Below, piece by piece: positions 11,133 through 63,215 of a DNA stretch of 64,000 bases (positions are counted from its first letter, which is position 1; every line of letters begins with the position of its first letter). The position numbers and the translations under genes are program-made. The notes below the pieces were generated by a model. The model was not told the origin of the DNA and made no database searches. It saw only the letters and a program-made list of their open reading frames with translations. Source of the DNA: Selenomonadales bacterium (GTDB taxonomy: Bacteria; Bacillota; Negativicutes; Sporomusales; UBA7701); assembly GCA_029975165.1 (NCBI GenBank), contig JARKPR010000081.1:1-64000 (forward strand), in the 5' to 3' direction.

Positions 11133-11295
11133 CACTCGATGTATAATATGACGGAGTCCTAATTTTGCCACCGGGAAGAAAAAATCGGCGGCAGATTCGG
11201 CGGGCATATTAGCCCAGGGGGCTTTACTAAAGCAGTGCGCCGTGTTGACAGGCGAAACCTCGAGCAGTATACTTGAGACAAGTGAATATTGATGA

Positions 11296-11451
11296 GATAG
11301 GTGCCCTACAGGGCTTAATAGGGAAGACCGGTTTAAAGCCGGCGCGGTCCCGCCACTGTATTGGGGAGCAAACCCGAGTTGACGCCACTGGGACAGATGT
11401 CCTGGGAAGGTTCGGGAGAGCGAAGATCCAGAGCCAGGAGAACTGCCTATC
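11296..11451 (+). ncRNA. Cobalamin riboswitch
   Basis: All hallmarks are readable: closing stem P1 GATAGG (11296-11301) with CCTATC (11446-11451), AGGTGCCC near the start, AATAGGGAA, the CCGG/CCGG hairpin around GGTTTAAAGCC, the B12-box-like GCGGTCCCGCCACTG, and the 3' GAGCCAGGAGAACTGCC. It senses adenosyl- or methylcobalamin and precedes a tandem of intrinsic terminators and the cbiK/cbiL/btuFCD genes, so it should switch those genes off when B12 is plentiful. Confidence 0.92.
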
Positions 11452-11522
11452 TGACAATCGCCGCTATTACCCACGAGCGATGGGAAGGAGATTCTCGACG
11501 CACCCTTTTGCGCTGAATCCTT

Positions 11523-44834: not shown

Positions 44835-45108
44835 AATTACAAAAATAACGCAATAATTTGTTAAGATGGCTATCTGTCATTAAGAAATGTATGATTAAAT
44901 AGAAAATTTCGTCTAAATGATCCCACTTCGGCAGGGCATGGCGGACCGATGCCGAAATAAAATCCTATGGAAGCTTATTCTGTTGTCGCACTATGCCGCA
45001 GCACGCCCCGGAGATAACCCGGCGCAAGTCAGCGGGACCAAAAACCACACCCGGAAGTAGGTGCTGAAAAAACTCATAAAAAAAACTCATATAAAGGAGA
45101 GATGTTTA
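44835..45108. other. Leader region before the first SLC13 gene
   Basis: No gene. It holds a hairpin TTCGGCA (44928-44934)/TGCCGAA (44951-44957) and, close to the start, a tandem of two near-identical A-rich CTCATA words (45066-45094). No clear -24/-12 promoter at the right spacing was found; a sigma-70 promoter is not obvious. Confidence 0.35.
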
Positions 45109-46512
45109 GTGAACAAAAACCTGCGTAACGGATTGATCGCGGTAGCCGTGGGCATCATCATCTGGTTCTTACCCGTTCCCGCCGGTCTCAAACCGGTAGC
45201 CTGGCATCTGTTCGCCATCTTCGTCGCCACCATCCTCGGCTTCATCCTCCAGCCCCTGCCGATCGGCGCCATCGCCTTCATAAGCCTCGGCCTCGCCGGC
45301 CTGCTCAACGTCCTCAAACCGGCCGAGATCCTCACCGGCTTCGGCGACGTCACCATGTGGCTGATCGTATCGGCCTTCGTCTTCGCCAAAGGCTTCGTCA
45401 AGACCGGCCTCGGCCGCCGCATCGCCTACAAGGTCATGGCCGCCATCGGCGACAGCTCGCTCAAGCTCGCCTACGCCCTGGCCCTCAGCGACCTCATCGT
45501 AAGCCCGGCCACGCCCTCCAACACCGCCCGCGGCGGCGGCATCCTCTTCCCCATCGTCAAAAGCCTTTCCTCGGCGTTCGATTCCGAGCCGGGGCCGTCC
45601 TCGCGCAAAATCGGCGCCTACCTCATGAAATCCACCTTCCAGTGCAACACCATCACCTCGGCCATGTTCCTCACCTCGTGCGCGCCCAACTCGCTGGCTG
45701 CCGCCCTCGCCCTGAAGACCTCCCAAGTGACGATCACCTGGGGCGCCTGGGCCCTTGCCGGCATCGTCCCCGGCCTCATCTCCCTCGCCATCGCCCCCTA
45801 CCTCATCTACAAGCTCTACCCGCCGGAAATCACCAAAACCCCGGAAGCCAAAGTCATCGCCGAGCAGGAACTCGCGAAAATGGGCCCGACCACCTGGGGC
45901 GAAAAAGTCGTCGCCGCCACCTTCGTCCTCGCCCTCCTGCTCTGGGGCACCTCGTCGTGGACCAACATCAACGCCACCGTCGCTGCCATCTGCTGCGTCG
46001 GCGTCATGCTGCTCGGCCAGGCGCTCGAATGGAAAGACATCCTCGAAGAAAAAGGCGCCTGGGACACCCTCATCTGGATGGGCGGCCTCATCAGCCTCGC
46101 CGGCGCCCTCACCAAGGTCGGCTTCATCGGCTGGTTCGCCAAGCTTGTCGGCGTTTCGTTGACCGGCTTCTCCTGGACGGCGGCCCTCGCCATCCTCTTC
46201 ATCGCCTACATGTACACCCACTACGCCTTCGCCAGCATCTCGGCCCACGTCACCGCCATGTACGCCGCCTTCCTGGCCGTGGCCGTCGCCGCCGGCGCGC
46301 CGCCCTTCCTCGCGGCCATGGGCATGGGCGTAATCTCCGGCCTCATGGGCGGCATCACCCACTACGCCACCGGCCCGGCGCCCATCTACTTCGGCGCGGG
46401 TTACATCCCCCAGAACACCTGGTGGCGGATCGGCTTCATTGTGTCGGTCGTCAACATGATCGTCTTCATCGGCTTAGGCAGCATCTGGTGGAAAGTCGTC
46501 GGCCTCTGGTAA
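45109..46512 (+). CDS. SLC13/DASS-family dicarboxylate or sulfate transporter (first)
   Basis: A polytopic protein of 467 residues with DASS-family elements: GDVTMWLIVSAFVFAKGFVKTGLGRRIAYKV, SDLIVSPATPSNTARGGGI (first SNT-type motif) and a late SISAHVTAMYAAFLAVAVAAGAPP with GMGVISGLMGGITHYATG. The two SNT-like hairpins bind the sodium and the carboxylate. GTG at 45109 is set by AAAGGAGA at spacing 8. It imports di- or tricarboxylates, probably with sodium. Codon use is extremely C-ending. Confidence 0.85.
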   Translation: MNKNLRNGLIAVAVGIIIWFLPVPAGLKPVAWHLFAIFVATILGFILQPLPIGAIAFISLGLAGLLNVLKPAEILTGFGDVTMWLIVSAFVFAKGFVKTGLGRRIAYKVMAAIGDSSLKLAYALALSDLIVSPATPSNTARGGGILFPIVKSLSSAFDSEPGPSSRKIGAYLMKSTFQCNTITSAMFLTSCAPNSLAAALALKTSQVTITWGAWALAGIVPGLISLAIAPYLIYKLYPPEITKTPEAKVIAEQELAKMGPTTWGEKVVAATFVLALLLWGTSSWTNINATVAAICCVGVMLLGQALEWKDILEEKGAWDTLIWMGGLISLAGALTKVGFIGWFAKLVGVSLTGFSWTAALAILFIAYMYTHYAFASISAHVTAMYAAFLAVAVAAGAPPFLAAMGMGVISGLMGGITHYATGPAPIYFGAGYIPQNTWWRIGFIVSVVNMIVFIGLGSIWWKVVGLW

Positions 46513-46950: not shown

Positions 46951-48513
46951 ATGGAATCGTTGACAGATAAGCAACAACAAGCAAAAATCGAATCCACGAG
47001 CAAACTGACGGAAGCGGAAGAAAAATTCGACCGGCGCCGCCGGACTACCGGCTGGTTCCTCGGCCCCATCCTCGGCCTCCTGGTCTTCTTCACCCCCATA
47101 GCCGGCCTCAAGCCGGAAGGCCACATCCTCGCGGCCATCATGACCTTCGTCGCCACCTGGTGGATATGCGAGCCCGTACCCATCCCCGTCACCTCGCTCA
47201 TCGGCCCGGTGCTGGCCGTCCTCTTCGGCGTCGTGCCGGCCAAGGCCGCCTTCGCCCCCTTCGCCGACCCCCTCATTTACCTCTTCATGGGCAGCTTCAT
47301 GATTGCCACGGCCATGATGACCCACGGCCTCGACAAACGCTTCGCCTACGCCATCCTCTCCATGAAATGGGTGGGCTCCAGCCCGGTCCGGATCATGCTC
47401 GCCGTAGGCCTCGTCACCGCCCTGCTCTCCGGCTGGGTGAGCAACACCGCCACCACCGCCATGATGTACCCCATCTCCATCGGCCTCCTGATGGCCATCA
47501 AGGACATGTACAAAGCCAACGGCGAGGACCTCGACCTCAACACCTTCAAATACGCCACCGGCATCATGCTCATGACCGCTTACGCCTCCTCGGTCGGCGG
47601 CGTGCTGACCCCTGTGGGCACCCCGCCCAACATCATCATGATGGGCTTTTTAGAGCAGCTGGCCAAAGTCAAGATCACCTTCTTCCAGTGGATGGTCTGG
47701 GGCTCGATCGCCATGGTGCTCTACTTCATCCTCATGTTCATCGTCCTCAAACAAATGTTCCCGGCCGGCATCACCAGCATCCCCGGCGCCGAAAAGCTCA
47801 TCGCCGACAAGCGCAAGGAACTCGGCCCGTGGTCGGCCGGCGAGCGCAACGCCGTCATCGCCTTCTCCATCGCCGTCATCCTGTGGGTTACGCCCGGCAT
47901 CCTGGCGATAATCTACGGCTCCGACGCCGCCATCCTCAAAACCTACGGCAAATACTTCCCCGAAGCGGTCGTCGCCATGGTCGCCGGCCTGTCGCTCTTC
48001 GTCATGCCGGTCAACTGGGGAAAACGCCAGTTCACCCTCACCTGGAAGGAAGCCAACAAAGGCATCGAGTGGGGCACCCTCATCCTCTTCGGCGGCGGCC
48101 TGGCGCTCGGTTCGATGATGTACACCACCGGGCTGTCGAAATGGATCGGCGACGCCATCGTCAAAACCACCGGCGCCAACTCCCAGGTCATGATCGTCAC
48201 CGTCTTCTCCATCCTGTCGCTGTTCATGTCCGAGCTGACTTCGCACACCGCGGCCACCAACATGGTCGGCCCGCTCGGCATCACCGTGGCCGTCTCCGCC
48301 GGCCTCAACCCCATACCGGTGGCCGTGGCCATCGCCCTGGCGTCCTCGCTGGGCTTCATGCTGCCGGTATCGACGCCGCCCAACGCCATCGTCTACGCCA
48401 GCGGCTACATCCCCATCACCAAAATGATCAGGTCGGGCGTCATCATCGACATCATCGGCCTGGCGCTCATCACCATCCCGCTGGTCGTCTACCTCGTCAC
48501 GGCAGTCGTGTAA
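46951..48513 (+). CDS. SLC13/DASS-family dicarboxylate transporter (second)
   Basis: A 520-residue SLC13 protein with a charged N-terminal tail (about 30 residues), then helices containing VATWWICEPVPIPVTSLIGPVLAVLFGV, WVSNTATTAMMYPISIGLL (first SNT motif), VGGVLTPVGTPPNIIMMG and the late ELTSHTAATNMVGPLGITVA with PVSTPPNAIVYASG. Both SNT-type sodium/carboxylate hairpins are complete, so it should carry di- or tricarboxylates. AAGGAGG precedes ATG 46951. The long frames crossing it on the other phase are artefacts of its C-rich third positions. A PrpR-type activator gene converges on it. Confidence 0.88.
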   Translation: MESLTDKQQQAKIESTSKLTEAEEKFDRRRRTTGWFLGPILGLLVFFTPIAGLKPEGHILAAIMTFVATWWICEPVPIPVTSLIGPVLAVLFGVVPAKAAFAPFADPLIYLFMGSFMIATAMMTHGLDKRFAYAILSMKWVGSSPVRIMLAVGLVTALLSGWVSNTATTAMMYPISIGLLMAIKDMYKANGEDLDLNTFKYATGIMLMTAYASSVGGVLTPVGTPPNIIMMGFLEQLAKVKITFFQWMVWGSIAMVLYFILMFIVLKQMFPAGITSIPGAEKLIADKRKELGPWSAGERNAVIAFSIAVILWVTPGILAIIYGSDAAILKTYGKYFPEAVVAMVAGLSLFVMPVNWGKRQFTLTWKEANKGIEWGTLILFGGGLALGSMMYTTGLSKWIGDAIVKTTGANSQVMIVTVFSILSLFMSELTSHTAATNMVGPLGITVAVSAGLNPIPVAVAIALASSLGFMLPVSTPPNAIVYASGYIPITKMIRSGVIIDIIGLALITIPLVVYLVTAVV

Positions 48514-48584: not shown

Positions 48585-50453
48585 CTATGCGTGGATTCCC
48601 AGCCGCCGCATCTTGCGCCAGAGAGTCGAACGATTGATGCCAAGCAGGCTGGCGGCCTTGCCCGGCTTACCGCCCGCCTGGGCGAGAGCTGCGGTGATAG
48701 CGGCGATTTCCCGGGGAGCAGTGGCCTGACAGTCGGCCCCAATATCCGTCGTATCGAGACATTGAGCCAGGGTCGCTTCGTTTACAAGGCGAGTCTTGTT
48801 GACCACCGCCACCCGCTCGATCGTGTTCTGCAATTGCCGGACATTGCCTGGCCAGTCGTGTTCAACCATCATCTGCAGCGCGGCGGGCCGGAAACCGAGG
48901 GCCTGCCCGTTGGTCCGGGCATACTTTTCCAGGAAGTTCTTGGCATAGAGCGGGATATCCGCCTTGCGTTCGCGCAGCGGCGGCAGCTGCAGCCGCAGGA
49001 CATTGAGGCGATAAAAAAGATCGTCGCGGAACTTCCTTTGGCCGACAGCCTTGTTGAGGTCCCGGTTGGTGGCGGCGATTATTCTCACATCCACCGGGAG
49101 CACGCGGTCGCTGCCCAGGCGCGTGACCACCTTTTCCTGCAAAACGCGGAGCAGCCGGCCCTGGTTGGCGTAGTCCAGTTCGGCGATCTCGTCCAGGAAC
49201 AGCGTGCCGTCGTGGGCCACCTCGAACAAGCCTGGCTTGCCTTCGCGGTTGGCGCCGGTAAAGGCGCCCCGCACATAGCCGAACAGCTCGCTCTCCAGGA
49301 TCTGGGCCGGCAGGGCGGCGCAGTTGACGGCCACGAAAGGGCCGTGGCTGCGCTGGCTGTAATTGTGAATGCTCTGGGCGAAGACTTCTTTGCCGGTACC
49401 TGTCTCGCCGAGGATCAGGATGTTCGCGCCGGTGCGCGCATAGTCCTTGGCCATGTTTACCGCCTGCCGGATCGCGCCGCTTTTGCCCCAGATATCCGCG
49501 AAGGTGAACCTGGCGACATGGCCGGCGGCGTAAATCTCCCGGCGGATGCGGGCCTCCAGCTGCTGAATCTGGCTGATGTCCTGGAAAGTGGCGATAGCTC
49601 CCTCCGGCCGGTTGTTGACGATGATCGGCACCTTGTTGCAGTGGATTTGCACCTCGTTGATCCGGTCGAGCCGGTTGAGCTGCTCCTTGCCGGTGGCGAT
49701 CACCTTCTCCAACTCGAGGGACGGCCACAGTGCGCCGATCTTTTTGCCGGCCGCGTTTTGCCATTTGGTTATCGCGGCGGCGGCCGGATTGATGCTTGTT
49801 ATGACCCCGGCGGTGTCGATGGTGATGATGCCGTCGTGGGCGAAATCCAATACGGCCCCGAACAGCGTGCGTTTATACTTTTCCGTTTCGATGGCTCGCG
49901 CGAGCCGCAGTCCTTCGAAGGCCGCCTGCAAGATCGAGGCCCGGCTGGATTCGATGAAAACATGGGGCAGCTTATGGGCCCGGCAGGCCTGCGCCGCCAG
50001 TGCGCCGCCAACGACGACGTCGTAGCCCCGGGAAAAAGCCTGGCAGACTATTTGCTCGATCGCCTCGGCATTCTCGATATAAAAAAAGCCTATTTCCACG
50101 CCCAGGATCTTGGCGGCATATTCGATGCCTAGCACCATCGACTGAAAAGCGACGACGGCGATGCGGTTGCCGTAGATTTTCGCTTTTTCCACCGCCTGGA
50201 TGATATCGAAGCCGGTTATCGGCAACTCGACCACCGTGAGATCGAAATTCGCCTCGCGGATAACCCTGGCGGTGCCGGCGCGGGCCACCACCACTTCCAA
50301 GCCGTGGGCCAGGTGCTTCTTCACGATGGCCACGCCGTTGGACCACAGGCCGTGCTCGATCGGGATATCGAGCCCCGCCTCCCCGAGCACGCCGGCGGCA
50401 TACCCGACCATTGTTGCATCCGATACGATAAACAGCATTTTTCTGTCGGTCAA
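48585..50453 (-). CDS. Sigma-54 activator with PrpR-N and PAS domains
   Basis: Layout of the 622 residues: N-terminal PrpR_N ligand domain (about 5-180; [38 protein letters not shown]), PAS domain (about 195-310; [24 protein letters not shown]), AAA+ domain (Walker [19 protein letters not shown] intact, Walker [12 protein letters not shown]) and a Fis-like helix-turn-helix ([23 protein letters not shown]). PrpR_N proteins sense small carboxylates or their CoA/catabolic intermediates. It is divergent from the hydro-lyase operon, whose sigma-54 promoter lies in between, so it is the obvious activator. Start at 50453 (ATG) fits. Confidence 0.9.
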
Positions 50454-50566: not shown

Positions 50567-50582
50567 TGGAACGCTTTTTGCA
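50567..50582 (+). promoter_or_regulatory. Sigma-54 promoter of the hydro-lyase/aldolase operon
   Basis: TGGAACGCTTTTTGCA matches TGGCACRNNNNTTGCW except for A at position 4, with GG and GC at the exact spacing, 41 bases before the ATG at 50623. Two ATGCAACG/TTGCAAC words upstream (50476-50483, 50517-50523) could be activator sites. Confidence 0.72.
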
Positions 50583-50622: not shown

Positions 50623-51876
50623 ATGGCCATGCACGCCTTGCACAAGATTATGGCGGCTAAATCCGGCCAAACCGCCGTCGCGCCGGGGGATATCGTCACC
50701 TGCGCCGTCGATGTGGCTGGCATCAACGATATTTACCTGATGGTGGTCCACGCCTTTCGGGCGATGGGCGGCAAACGGGTGATGCGGCCGGAGCGGGTGG
50801 CGATCTTCATGGACCATAACGCCCCCAGCCCAAGCGTGCAGGGCGCCGAGAATCAAAAAGCCTTCCGCGAGTTTGCCGCCCGATACGGCATCGGCCATGT
50901 CTTCGAAATCAACGAAGGCATCTGTCACCAGCTCCTGCCGGAGGCGGGCCTGGTCAAGCCGGGCGACATCGTCGTCATCACCGATTCCCACACCACCACC
51001 CACGGCGCGTTCGGAGCCTTCGGGACAGGCGTGGGCTCGACCGACATGGCGGTCATCCTGCTGGAGGGCAGCCTGTGGCTGCGGGCCCCGGAAATAGTCA
51101 ACGTCAAACTGGCAGGCAAACTCAGGCCGGGGGTCATGGCTAAAGACGCGGCCCTGTTCATCCTGGGAAAACTCGGCACCGATTTCGCCAACTACAAGGC
51201 CATAGAGTTCTCCGGGGCAATCGTACGGGCCTTGCCGGCGGAGGAACGGATGGTGCTGTGCAACATGGCCGTGGAAATGGGGGCCAAGACCACCTATATC
51301 GCCCCGGACGACACGACCATCGCCTATCTGCGGCAATACAGCGACAAACCTTTCGCCATACCGGCGACCGATGCCGATTTCGTATATGAAAAGATCTACG
51401 AATTCGACCTGTCCGGCCTGGAACCGCAAGTGGCGCTGCCGGCCAGCGTGGACAACGTCAAGCCGGTCAAGGAAGCGCTGGGCACACCCATTGACCAGGT
51501 CTTCATCGGTTCCTGCACCGGCGGCAAATTCACCGATATCGAAGCGGCCGCCAAGTATCTGCGCGGGAAAAAAGTGGCCAGGGGCACCCGGCTGGTAGTC
51601 ACCATGGCCTCGAAAGCGACCCTGGGCAAAGCGATCGCCGCCGGCCACTACCAGACCCTGCTAGCAGCGGGGGCCGCTATCACCGTGCCAGGCTGCGCGG
51701 CCTGCTACGGCGGCCACTCGGGGCTATTGGGCGCCGGCGAGCGGTGCGCGACCACCTCCAACCGCAATTTCCCCGGGCGGATGGGCGACGAGTCGTCCGC
51801 GCTGTACCTCGTATCGCCGCTGACCGCGGCGGCTACCGCCGTCGCCGGCAAACTCACCCACCCGGATTACGAATAA
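50623..51876 (+). CDS. Aconitase-family hydro-lyase, large subunit (LeuC/DmdA-like)
   Basis: A 417-residue LeuC-type large subunit: FMDHNAPSPSVQ, VITDSHTTTHGAFGAFGTGVGSTDMAV, then the [4Fe-4S] cysteines in GSCTGGKFTDIEAAAKYL and VPGCAACYGGHSGLLGAGERCATTSNRNFPGRMG. All three cluster Cys are present. The family includes isopropylmalate isomerase, homoaconitase and 2,3-dimethylmaleate hydratase; absence of leuA/leuB and the neighbouring aldolase and sigma-54 activator point to a catabolic hydratase. AGAAGAGGTG precedes ATG 50623. The small subunit follows 16 bases later. Confidence 0.87.
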   Translation: MAMHALHKIMAAKSGQTAVAPGDIVTCAVDVAGINDIYLMVVHAFRAMGGKRVMRPERVAIFMDHNAPSPSVQGAENQKAFREFAARYGIGHVFEINEGICHQLLPEAGLVKPGDIVVITDSHTTTHGAFGAFGTGVGSTDMAVILLEGSLWLRAPEIVNVKLAGKLRPGVMAKDAALFILGKLGTDFANYKAIEFSGAIVRALPAEERMVLCNMAVEMGAKTTYIAPDDTTIAYLRQYSDKPFAIPATDADFVYEKIYEFDLSGLEPQVALPASVDNVKPVKEALGTPIDQVFIGSCTGGKFTDIEAAAKYLRGKKVARGTRLVVTMASKATLGKAIAAGHYQTLLAAGAAITVPGCAACYGGHSGLLGAGERCATTSNRNFPGRMGDESSALYLVSPLTAAATAVAGKLTHPDYE

Positions 51877-51892: not shown

Positions 51893-52402
51893 ATGGCAAT
51901 CAGAAGCAAAGCCGTCGTGCTGCGGCAAAACAACGTAAGCACCGATCAGATATGGCCGGGCAAATATGTCAATATCTCCGACCCCGGGGAAATGGCGGCC
52001 CATGTGCTGGAAGGCGCCGACAAGACGCTCCGGGACCGCTTCAAAACCGTCGGCCGGATACTGGTCACCGGCAGCAGCTTCGGCTGCGGCTCCAGCCGCG
52101 AACAGGCGGTCATCTCGCTCCTCCAGGCCGGCGTCAAAGCCGTCGTCGCCAGCTCGGTCGGCCGTATATGGTACCGCAACGCCATCAACCTGGCCTTGCC
52201 GGTGCTCATCTGCCCGGGGGCGGTCGACAAAATAGCAGAAGGCGACGAAATCGCCGTCGACCTGGAAGCCGGCACGGTCACCCTGGCCGGCGGGCAAGTG
52301 CTCAAGGGCCAGCCGGTGGGCGAGTTCGTCTTCAACATAATCAAAAGCGGCGGCATCAAACAGCTGATGCGCCAAAAACACGCAGGGGAGGAAGCAAAAT
52401 GA
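51893..52402 (+). CDS. Aconitase-family hydro-lyase, small subunit (LeuD/DmdB-like)
   Basis: A 169-residue swivel-domain subunit with VSTDQIWPGKYVNISDP (substrate loop), TGSSFGCGSSREQAVISLLQAGVKAVVASSVGRIWYRNAINLALPVL. The SSFGCGSSREQA loop is the substrate-binding signature of LeuD-type subunits; the YLIM-type loop used to tell LeuD from homoaconitase subunits differs, so the substrate is open. AAGGAGGCGG precedes the ATG. Its stop overlaps the ATG of the aldolase gene. Confidence 0.87.
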   Translation: MAIRSKAVVLRQNNVSTDQIWPGKYVNISDPGEMAAHVLEGADKTLRDRFKTVGRILVTGSSFGCGSSREQAVISLLQAGVKAVVASSVGRIWYRNAINLALPVLICPGAVDKIAEGDEIAVDLEAGTVTLAGGQVLKGQPVGEFVFNIIKSGGIKQLMRQKHAGEEAK

Positions 52403-53061
52403 GTTCACGCATTTTAGCCAATGCGGCGCCTATCGACGAAAAACTGCTCGACAGAGCGCGCAAACTGTCGCCGGCGCTCCTGTGCGACGCCCTGGGCAAT
52501 TTCGGGGCCATGGACTACCGGGTAAAACCGGTATGGCCAGGGGCGGTAGTCCTCGGCACCGCCCTCACCGTCAACCTGCGGCCGGGGGACAACCTGCTGC
52601 TGCACCGCGCCATCTGCCAGGCCGCGCCCGGCTACGTCCTCGTCGCCGCGACCGGCGGCTGCACGACCAACGCCGTCTGGGGGGACATGATGACAAGGGC
52701 GGCGCTGAAGGCCGGAGCGGCCGGCACCGTCGTGGACGGCGCGGTCCGCGACGTCGACGACATCCGCGACTTCCAATACCCTGTTTTCGCCGTGGGCGCC
52801 ATTCCCCAGGCCGCCCATCGCGACGGCCCCGGCTCGATCAACGTGCCGGTAGCCTGCGGCGGCGTGCCGGTCAACCCGGGCGACCTGGTGTTCGGCAACG
52901 CCGACGGGGTGGTGGTGGTGCCGCAGGCGATACTGGCAGAGGCCCTGCTCCAGGCGGAGAAAAAACTGGCCGGCGAGAACGCCCGTTTCGAGGAAATCGC
53001 CGCCGGCAAACTCGCGCCGCAATGGCTGGGCGGTAAACTCAAAGCCCTAGGCCTGGAATAA
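52399..53061 (+). CDS. RraA-like class II aldolase/decarboxylase (HMG/CHA aldolase type)
   Basis: The 220-residue protein has the RraA fold signatures: LCDALGNFGAMDYRVKPVWPG, RPGDNLLLHRAIC, ATGGCTTNAVWGDMMTRAALKAGAAGTVVDGAVRDVDDIRDFQYPVFAVGAIPQAA. The GAVRD motif with nearby WGD is the metal and substrate site of 4-hydroxy-4-methyl-2-oxoglutarate and 4-carboxy-4-hydroxy-2-oxoadipate aldolases. A retro-aldol step following hydration by the subunits encoded just before would give pyruvate plus an oxo acid. ATG at 52399 overlaps the small-subunit stop (ATGA). Confidence 0.82.
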   Translation: MSSRILANAAPIDEKLLDRARKLSPALLCDALGNFGAMDYRVKPVWPGAVVLGTALTVNLRPGDNLLLHRAICQAAPGYVLVAATGGCTTNAVWGDMMTRAALKAGAAGTVVDGAVRDVDDIRDFQYPVFAVGAIPQAAHRDGPGSINVPVACGGVPVNPGDLVFGNADGVVVVPQAILAEALLQAEKKLAGENARFEEIAAGKLAPQWLGGKLKALGLE

Positions 53062-53106: not shown

Positions 53107-53988
53107 ATGTTTGAAGGCTTCAAGCATGCACAACTTCAGACCAGCGACCCCGAAGTAAAGATCAACCTCAGGTACGGGGGCCAGGGCCCGGCCGTGCTGC
53201 TGCTGCACGGCAATCCCCTGACCCACGCGACATGGCACAAGGTCGCGCCCTTGCTGGCCAAAGACTTCACCGTCGTCGTCAGCGATCTGCGGGGTTACGG
53301 GGACAGCTCCAAGCCCCAGGGCTTGCCCGACCACAGCAACTACTCCTTCCGGCGCATGGGACAGGATCAGATCGAAGTGATGGAACAACTGGGCTTCAAG
53401 CAGTTCTTCCTCGTGGGCCACGACCGCGGCGCCCGCACCGCCTTCCGCATGGCGCTCGACTATCCCGACCGCATCCAAAAATATGTGCCGGTCGATATCG
53501 TTCCCACCTACACGGTGTGGACCGACCTCTCGCTCAAGAAAGGACTTGAGCTCTATCACTGGTTTTTCATGGCCCAGCCCTACGATTTCCCGGAGCGGCT
53601 GCTCTCCGCCAACCTCGAATATTACATGAAAAAGAAGCTGGAAAAACACATGCACGGGATGGGGGGCATGGCGCCGGAGGCGGTGGCCGAATACTTCCGC
53701 TGCGCGACGCCGGAGCAAATCCATGGCGTCTGCGAGGACTACCGGGCGGCCGCCACCATCGACTTTGCGATGGATAAAGCGGATTACGAAGCGGAGCGCA
53801 AAATCGCGTGCCCGGTAATGGTGCTGTGGGGCGACAAAAGCCATGTTGAAACGTCGCGGCCGCGCGAAGTATGGCCGCGTTATGCCGCGAACATCGTGGC
53901 GATGCAATCGGTCCAGTCCGGGCATTATCCCCAGGAGCAGGCAGCGGAACAAGTATACCAGGCGCTTTACCGCTTTTTGAAGATCTGA
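53107..53988 (+). CDS. Alpha/beta hydrolase, fluoroacetate-dehalogenase-like
   Basis: The 293-residue protein has an oxyanion motif HGNP, nucleophile elbow GHDRGA (Asp106), Arg107 and Arg110 for the carboxylate, Asp130 in VPVDIVPTYTVW, the halide-pocket pair His151-Trp152 in LYHWFFMAQP, Tyr212 in CEDYRAAA and catalytic His273 in SGHYPQ. Same residues, same order and nearly the same spacing occur in known fluoroacetate dehalogenases. An Asp nucleophile excludes ordinary esterases. One pocket Trp seen in those enzymes seems absent (region 178-181), so another haloacid or an epoxide is possible. GGAGGGATGAAAG precedes ATG 53107; it is the fourth gene after the sigma-54 promoter. Confidence 0.78.
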   Translation: MFEGFKHAQLQTSDPEVKINLRYGGQGPAVLLLHGNPLTHATWHKVAPLLAKDFTVVVSDLRGYGDSSKPQGLPDHSNYSFRRMGQDQIEVMEQLGFKQFFLVGHDRGARTAFRMALDYPDRIQKYVPVDIVPTYTVWTDLSLKKGLELYHWFFMAQPYDFPERLLSANLEYYMKKKLEKHMHGMGGMAPEAVAEYFRCATPEQIHGVCEDYRAAATIDFAMDKADYEAERKIACPVMVLWGDKSHVETSRPREVWPRYAANIVAMQSVQSGHYPQEQAAEQVYQALYRFLKI

Positions 53989-54035: not shown

Positions 54036-54068
54036 AAAGGCGCGGGAAACATCCGCGCCTTTCTTTTC
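54036..54068 (+). terminator. Terminator closing the hydro-lyase operon
   Basis: AAAGGCGCGG (54036-54045) pairs with CCGCGCCTTT (54053-54062), followed by CTTTTC. Confidence 0.78.
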
Positions 54069-62944: not shown

Positions 62945-63215
62945 GCCGCAGTACTCGCCGCTAAATACAGCGCCGGTGGCGGGTTCGGGTGCAGCCACGT
63001 TAGCGAGGACGGCGGCCGCTACTTAGCGAGAGAGCCGGTAACAGCACCGCGCGAGCCGCCATGGACGGCGGCGAGAACCGACAATCGAACACGGACGTTC
63101 GTTTGGCGGTGGCGCGGTGCTGTCGGCGACGAGGTTAGTAAGGCCGCCGCCCGTAGCGAGTGGCAAACCCGAACCCGCCACCGGCGCGTAGTGGCTGCAA
63201 TAACTTCGGCGGACT
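62945..63215. repeat. Large imperfect inverted-repeat element (structured RNA or MITE-like)
   Basis: Perfect 21-base arms at 62970-62990 and 63167-63187 flank further matching blocks: 63041-63052 with 63112-63123 (12 bases), and GACGGCGGCC near 63008 with GGCCGCCG near 63142. GCAGCCAC (62991-62998) also pairs with GTGGCTGC (63191-63198), which crosses the main stem. TTAGCGAG words recur four times in variants. No open frame is supported. The element occupies almost all of the 342-base gap between glgP and the next gene. Confidence 0.65.

Follow-up and report, generated by a model that had tools for sequence, protein, structure and literature searches.

Recurrent linkage of a fluoroacetate dehalogenase-family hydrolase with an aconitase-family hydro-lyase

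The toxicity of fluoroacetate runs through aconitase. Bacteria that would rarely be expected to encounter this compound often have enzymes resembling the fluoroacetate dehalogenases (FAcDs), for reasons that appear unsettled. The NOS0089 protein (Alr0039, PDB 3qyj) of Nostoc is an assayed FAcD that acts on fluoroacetate and difluoroacetate (PMC11022551). In the H1 enzyme W180 lines the active site, and in RPA1163 smaller residues at the W185 position let bulkier fluoroacids in (PMC12955510). The fluoroacetate cluster of Caballeronia S22 places genes for an aconitate methyltransferase, a fluoroacetyl-CoA thioesterase and CrcB next to the FAcD gene (PMC11812338). In the Cif-type epoxide hydrolases a His replaces one Tyr (PMC8244358).

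Here we describe an FAcD-family gene of a Selenomonadales bacterium. It lies in a 64,000 nucleotide stretch of contig JARKPR010000081.1, the whole of which is called the window. The open reading frame that a first-pass annotation of this DNA had reported is present, and the features of its locus are collected in Table 1.

Table 1. Features of the FAcD locus in the window
Feature	Position	Strand	Remarks
SLC13/DASS sodium:dicarboxylate symporter	45061..46512	+	upstream of regulator
Second SLC13/DASS-family symporter	46951..48513	+	upstream of regulator; possibly same locus
PrpR_N - PAS - sigma54-activator - Fis-type HTH regulator	48585..50453	-	divergent from operon; domain matches
-24/-12 (sigma-54) promoter-like site TGGAACgctttTTGCA	50567..50582	+	sole match in window; 0.18 expected by chance
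LeuC-like large subunit, aconitase-family hydro-lyase	50623..51876	+	hacA_fam/IPMI_arch subfamilies; below every equivalog cutoff
LeuD-like small subunit	51893..52402	+	specificity-loop region KYVNIS
RraA-like protein, CHA/HMG aldolase - oxaloacetate decarboxylase family	52399..53061	+	closest named solved structure 3noj
FAcD-family alpha/beta hydrolase, 293 aa	53107..53988	+	D106 nucleophile; H273/D130 charge relay; R107/R110 carboxylate site; H151/W152/Y212 leaving-group site
Intrinsic terminator-like hairpin, 11-bp stem + U tract	54036..54067	+	3' of FAcD, operon end

The gene is a member of the FAcD family, and its similarity to the family is far beyond chance. A phmmer search against the PDB returned NOS0089 (E = 1e-90), 9c9f (E = 3e-75) and RPA1163 (E = 1.6e-73), and NOS0089 is the closest solved structure at about 50% identity. 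With a 33-member profile the FAcD-type chains score E <= 1e-93 and the best other epoxide hydrolase about 4e-51, which places the window protein nearer the FAcDs than the epoxide hydrolases in sequence. Pfam assigns a generic alpha/beta hydrolase and nothing narrower, and none of the NCBIfam equivalogs scores above its cutoff. Comparison of a structure model with characterised dehalogenases had been proposed as a check by the first-pass annotation. The AlphaFold model (mean pLDDT 92) superimposes on FAcD structures with a TM of about 0.95 and an rmsd of 1.2-1.7.

Alignment places D106, R107, R110 and D130 of the window FAcD on D110, R111, R114 and D134 of RPA1163, and H151, W152, Y212 and H273 on H155, W156, Y219 and H280. 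The Asp nucleophile and His/Asp charge relay of FAcDs, the Arg pair for the substrate carboxylate and the His-Trp-Tyr halide site are all present and in register, as the first-pass annotation had claimed for these eight residues. Across 104 family members, aligned together with one Cif-type outgroup, the eight positions are invariant with the sole exception of 4nvr at H151, and the outgroup has Ile and Met at the positions of R107 and R110. Because they are invariant family-wide, these residues speak for FAcD membership and chemistry and not for a substrate. The chemistry predicted from sequence is an Asp ester intermediate, a two-Arg grip on the carboxylate and a His/Trp/Tyr grip on the leaving group.

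The lining of the pocket differs. The window FAcD has N36, M155, H181 and S245 at the positions of F40, Leu, W185 and Gly in RPA1163, and the size-limiting Trp (W185 of RPA1163, W180 of H1) is replaced by H181. This Trp is no strict family trait, as 9c9f, which is annotated as a fluoroacetate dehalogenase, has Arg there. The position is Lys or Met in most of the window FAcD's own clade (52-80% identity) and Lys in the clade of LeuCD-linked FAcDs. These observations bear on whether the protein simply dehalogenates fluoroacetate or chloroacetate and sits in the operon for no reason other than co-regulation. Its residues and fold are those of RPA1163, FA1 and NOS0089, as such an enzyme would have. 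Against it stand the lost pocket Trp, the repeated and independent linkage to LeuCD described below, and the product, since a haloacetate would yield glycolate, which needs neither LeuCD nor RraA. We regard this explanation as improbable.

The operon runs LeuC-LeuD-RraA-FAcD, head to tail, and the start of the RraA-like gene overlaps the LeuD stop (ATGA). The -24/-12 site fits the divergent PrpR_N/sigma-54 activator, and a search upstream of the operon found no inverted-repeat activator site. The terminator-like region past the FAcD gene folds at -19.1 kcal/mol (z -3.4). A consensus terminator scan does not call this hairpin, probably because an extension of the stem uses part of the U tract. 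The next gene after the operon encodes an AEC transporter and has a promoter-like site of its own. Co-transcription of FAcD with the aconitase-family gene is probable, and the operon looks inducible, judged by the PrpR-type sigma-54 activator and the nearby dicarboxylate transporters. The first of the two symporters has an 83% homolog in the same genome that sits in a PrpR-SLC13-LeuCD locus (G000:C26). The window also contains a cobalamin riboswitch (11282-11464, plus strand, 112.6 bits) and a TwoAYGGAY RNA motif (63047-63116, plus strand, 44.5 bits), the latter barely over its gathering score.

The first-pass annotation had pointed to an aconitase relative beside the FAcD gene. The relative is real and belongs to the aconitase family (PF00330, 315 bits), but it is a two-subunit hydro-lyase of the LeuC/LeuD type and not the aconitase of the TCA cycle. 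The cluster cysteines of the LeuC are C298, C358 and C361. Against the 3-isopropylmalate dehydratase equivalogs LeuC scores 419 bits (cutoff 610.65) and LeuD 139 bits (cutoff 245.85). The specificity loop of LeuD, KYVNIS, compares with RYLVYT in the isopropylmalate isomerase (IPMI) of M. jannaschii and PYLRTT in homoaconitase; its YVNI is of neither the isopropylmalate (YLVY/YLVM) nor the homoaconitase (YLRT) type. The RraA-like protein likewise falls below equivalog cutoffs (153 versus 179 bits and 139 versus 304.5 bits). All FAcD carriers of the class have another LeuC elsewhere in the genome, with 38-43% identity to the linked one, so the linked LeuCD is an extra, dedicated copy. A biosynthetic (leucine) role for the linked pair was rejected on this ground and on the scores below the equivalog cutoffs. 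The window LeuCD is thus a second, catabolic-looking paralog. Maleate, citraconate and tartrate could not be separated as candidate names for the pathway.

The window FAcD was used as a query against 301 genomes of the class, the window genome and 300 others. FAcD carriers number 17, including the window genome, and in a phylum sample all carriers were members of this class. Among the 16 other FAcD genes, 13 directly abut LeuC or LeuD and are co-directional with it. The remaining three lie next to a LysR gene in the same locus as a PrpR-SLC13-LeuCD unit (G113), near a LeuC fragment (G216) and alone (G145). A LysR-type gene usually stands beside the class FAcDs, and SLC13 genes are often near. 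The LeuCD of L051/L066 resembles a distant copy of the leucine type and did not enter the linkage count. A second type of LeuC (LeuC2, defined by E <= 1e-120) is present in 44 of the 301 genomes, and it occurs in 16 of the 17 carriers against an expectation of 2.5 (hypergeometric 4e-14). At the level of genera FAcD is found with LeuC2 in 8/8 (p = 2e-5), which is the fairer figure because species are not independent. Recurrence and co-occurrence led us to reject chance adjacency of FAcD and LeuCD. FAcD is absent from 28 of the genomes with LeuC2 and is therefore an optional partner, or add-on. Among the 301 genomes the exact four-gene order of the operon was found in the window genome only. Beside the second-type LeuCD (LeuCD2), DASS or Tct transporters and genes of the oxaloacetate-decarboxylase type (OadA-like, RraA-like) recur. 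Two LeuCD2 loci (G005, L147) combine an RraA-like gene with a 2-hydroxyacid dehydrogenase and TctCBA, and two others (L140, L144) have an OadA-like protein.

Several LeuCD loci have further features. The window's own genome contains a related LeuCD on contig C49 (L126, 4756-11808) in the order SLC13 - LeuC - LeuD - CoA-transferase-like - HMG-CoA-lyase-like, looking like a citramalate/itaconate-type catabolic operon. The LeuC2 proteins nearest to that of the window (57-60%) belong to a PrpR / LeuC-LeuD-LeuB-like-aconitase operon (L111:8727-13650, L130, L131, L132), which looks like an uncharacterised oxidative route. Beside another LeuCD, a PrpR_N sensor domain is fused to a chemoreceptor (MCP) signalling domain (L142:8450-9589, plus strand), and a gene of the same cluster (L112:15564-16730, plus strand) matches an MCP family. 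The fusion protein may sense the LeuCD substrate as a chemoreceptor in the cytosol. One LeuCD2 locus (L139) adjoins a SpoIID gene, which hints that the class is one of sporulating Bacillota, probably the Negativicutes.

The first-pass annotation had also suggested that the hydrolase guards the pathway. The window FAcD would then destroy fluoroacetate (or fluorocitrate) and so shield aconitase-family Fe-S enzymes. Its family identity, its probable co-transcription with such an enzyme and the known route of fluoroacetate toxicity all agree with a guard. However, the partner is the extra LeuCD, the operon looks nutrient-inducible, its substrate-type activator and transporters point to catabolism, and the 28 LeuCD2 genomes mentioned above manage without FAcD. 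None of CrcB, a fluoroacetyl-CoA thioesterase and an aconitate methyltransferase is found among the operon and flanking genes scanned, in contrast to the described cluster (PMC11812338). CrcB is never near FAcD among the 17 carriers and was not found at all in nine of them. The only CrcB found in the window's own genome is on contig C46, and three fluoride riboswitch matches lie within 2 kb, on both strands, of a further contig (G000:C27:31345-33299). The fluoroacetate-cluster reading gained no support from these CrcB, riboswitch and accessory-gene searches, and the guard proposal is very improbable. The unlinked and often missing CrcB also makes fluoride unlikely as the natural leaving group.

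The FAcD-LeuCD pairing has more than one origin. The FAcD tree joins the window protein to that of L003 (100/99) inside a proteobacterial clade, and the remaining LeuCD-linked FAcDs of the class have a clade of their own (100/98). In the tree of LeuC proteins, the copy from the window pairs with that of G105 (100/99), a genome without FAcD, and the other linked LeuCs lie apart. Since the window pairing stands apart in both trees, the pairing arose at least twice, and the tree positions imply that the window genome joined a different FAcD to a different LeuCD2 lineage. The five other genomes from the family of the window genome yielded no FAcD. Vertical inheritance of the window pairing was rejected from this absence and the two tree positions. 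Recurrence and multiple origins make the pairing that the first-pass annotation had called intriguing a meaningful one, though with a partner other than the TCA aconitase. The nearest homolog of the window FAcD (L003:3548-4432, 80%) has no LeuCD beside it. Its neighbours are ribosomal/EF-G genes on one side and a metallo-beta-lactamase-fold gene on the other, in a MAG that carries the label Nitrospiraceae. A wrong label or bin, or transfer of the gene, may explain this placement.

Eighty loci with FAcD relatives, mostly proteobacterial and mostly of the window FAcD's clade, were surveyed for neighbours, and the counts carry no genome-wide background. Within 3 kb are PdxA-family genes (39/80), Iso_dh-type dehydrogenases (32/80), MmgE/PrpD (27/80, rising to 47/80 within 8 kb) and TctC (26/80). 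MmgE/PrpD dehydratases and aconitase-family hydro-lyases share a type of substrate. The theme common to both groups is an FAcD with a hydro-lyase and a di/tricarboxylate transporter. In 15 of the 80 loci, alphaproteobacterial ones, a protein with two rhodanese stretches (L034:2272-3852 and cluster-mates) is encoded no more than 2.5 kb from the FAcD homolog, and this type of neighbour might be a sign of sulfur chemistry. If the enzyme had diverged within the FAcD fold, it could act differently on an alpha-substituted acid and displace, for example, a sulfur or nitrogen leaving group. Such a change would suit the rhodanese-domain neighbours and the pocket differences at N36, M155, H181 and S245, but no catalytic or halide-site residue varies in the clade, and we give this possibility little weight.

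The explanation that we prefer, with a probability of slightly under one half (about 0.48), is that the window FAcD is an Asp-nucleophile hydrolase and the optional entry step of an inducible operon for di/tricarboxylate degradation. It builds on the established family, fold, catalytic residues, operon structure and recurrent linkage; the reactions and their order would be as follows. R107 and R110 would hold the alpha-carboxylate of the substrate. Asp106 would displace a leaving group on the alpha-carbon that His151, Trp152 and Tyr212 stabilise, and water activated by His273 would free a 2-hydroxy acid. The LeuCD-type Fe-S hydro-lyase may then dehydrate, hydrate or isomerise this product or compounds related to it, and the RraA-type enzyme may cleave or decarboxylate an oxo-acid towards pyruvate. 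The LeuCD2 loci with an RraA-like gene, dehydrogenase and TctCBA, or with an OadA-like gene, suggest that the route probably has an oxo-acid intermediate, which undergoes decarboxylation or cleavage. Halogenated acids are possible substrates, as the first-pass annotation had proposed. The group displaced is most likely a halide, carried by a small acid that is probably dicarboxylic, and the CrcB distribution and the separate location of the genome's fluoride riboswitches make chloride likelier than fluoride. No halide transporter or sensor linked to the operon was seen, and to our knowledge natural alpha-halo dicarboxylates are little documented.

The same active site might open an alpha,beta-epoxy (di)carboxylate such as epoxysuccinate. 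The resulting dihydroxy acid would be converted to an oxo acid by the hydro-lyase and decarboxylated by the RraA-like enzyme. An epoxide oxygen is a possible leaving group because Cif-type enzymes use His at the position of H151 (PMC8244358), and H151 and Y212 would fit a His-Tyr ring-opening pair. The RraA-like and OadA-like decarboxylases beside LeuCD2 fit an oxaloacetate intermediate, and fluoride export is unlinked. On the other side, W152 and the Arg pair are FAcD-type, and the Trp is invariant in the family and is needed for C-F, not C-Cl, cleavage in FA1 (PMC11022551). The profile scores set FAcDs apart from epoxide hydrolases (E >= about 4e-51), and the nearest assayed relative is a defluorinase. 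We rate epoxide opening as rather unlikely, with a chance that is still appreciable.

The recurrent pairing of FAcD with an aconitase relative suggests an unrecognised everyday role of FAcD-like enzymes in the breakdown of substituted organic acids. As a tentative extension, which may well prove too broad, the family would consist not primarily of fluoroacetate detoxifiers but, in this Bacillota class and in Proteobacteria, of entry enzymes of di/tricarboxylate catabolism. These would be repeatedly paired with a hydro-lyase (LeuCD2, or MmgE/PrpD as its non-homologous counterpart) and would attack natural halogenated or epoxidised dicarboxylates. That such an operon, with its hydro-lyase and dicarboxylate transporters, formed repeatedly and independently narrows the question to a few substrates that can be tested. 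It may also lead to wider-pocket defluorinases or dechlorinases from anaerobe-type genomes, which bears on organohalide clean-up. A search of the open-access literature on natural FAcD substrates, genomic context, epoxysuccinate and maleate hydratase found nothing useful, and within that literature the FAcD-LeuCD arrangement provisionally appears not to have been described before.

Compared with known systems, the window FAcD is most like NOS0089, with which it shares the fold (TM 0.94-0.96) and all eight residues. NOS0089 differs in having Tyr and Trp in the pocket at the positions of N36 and H181, and it falls in a separate clade of the tree. RPA1163 (3r3u) and FA1 (1y37) have the same catalytic triad, Arg pair and halide site at about 42-44% identity, with F40 and W185 of RPA1163 in place of N36 and H181. 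The Cif-type epoxide hydrolases are also alpha/beta hydrolases with an Asp nucleophile, and their first ring-opening residue is likewise a His, but they lack the Arg pair and have Phe at the position of Trp152. The operon context is unlike the fluoroacetate cluster of Caballeronia S22 (PMC11812338). The isopropylmalate/citramalate isomerase and the homoaconitase of M. jannaschii (4nqy/3vba, 4kp2/2pkp) are two-subunit Fe-S hydro-lyases that align with the window LeuCD over the full length, and they differ from it in the LeuD loop and in its equivalog scores. The RraA-like protein shares the RraA fold family and the VRD active-site motif with the 4-carboxy-4-hydroxy-2-oxoadipate aldolase / oxaloacetate decarboxylase (3noj), but scores under the equivalog cutoffs.
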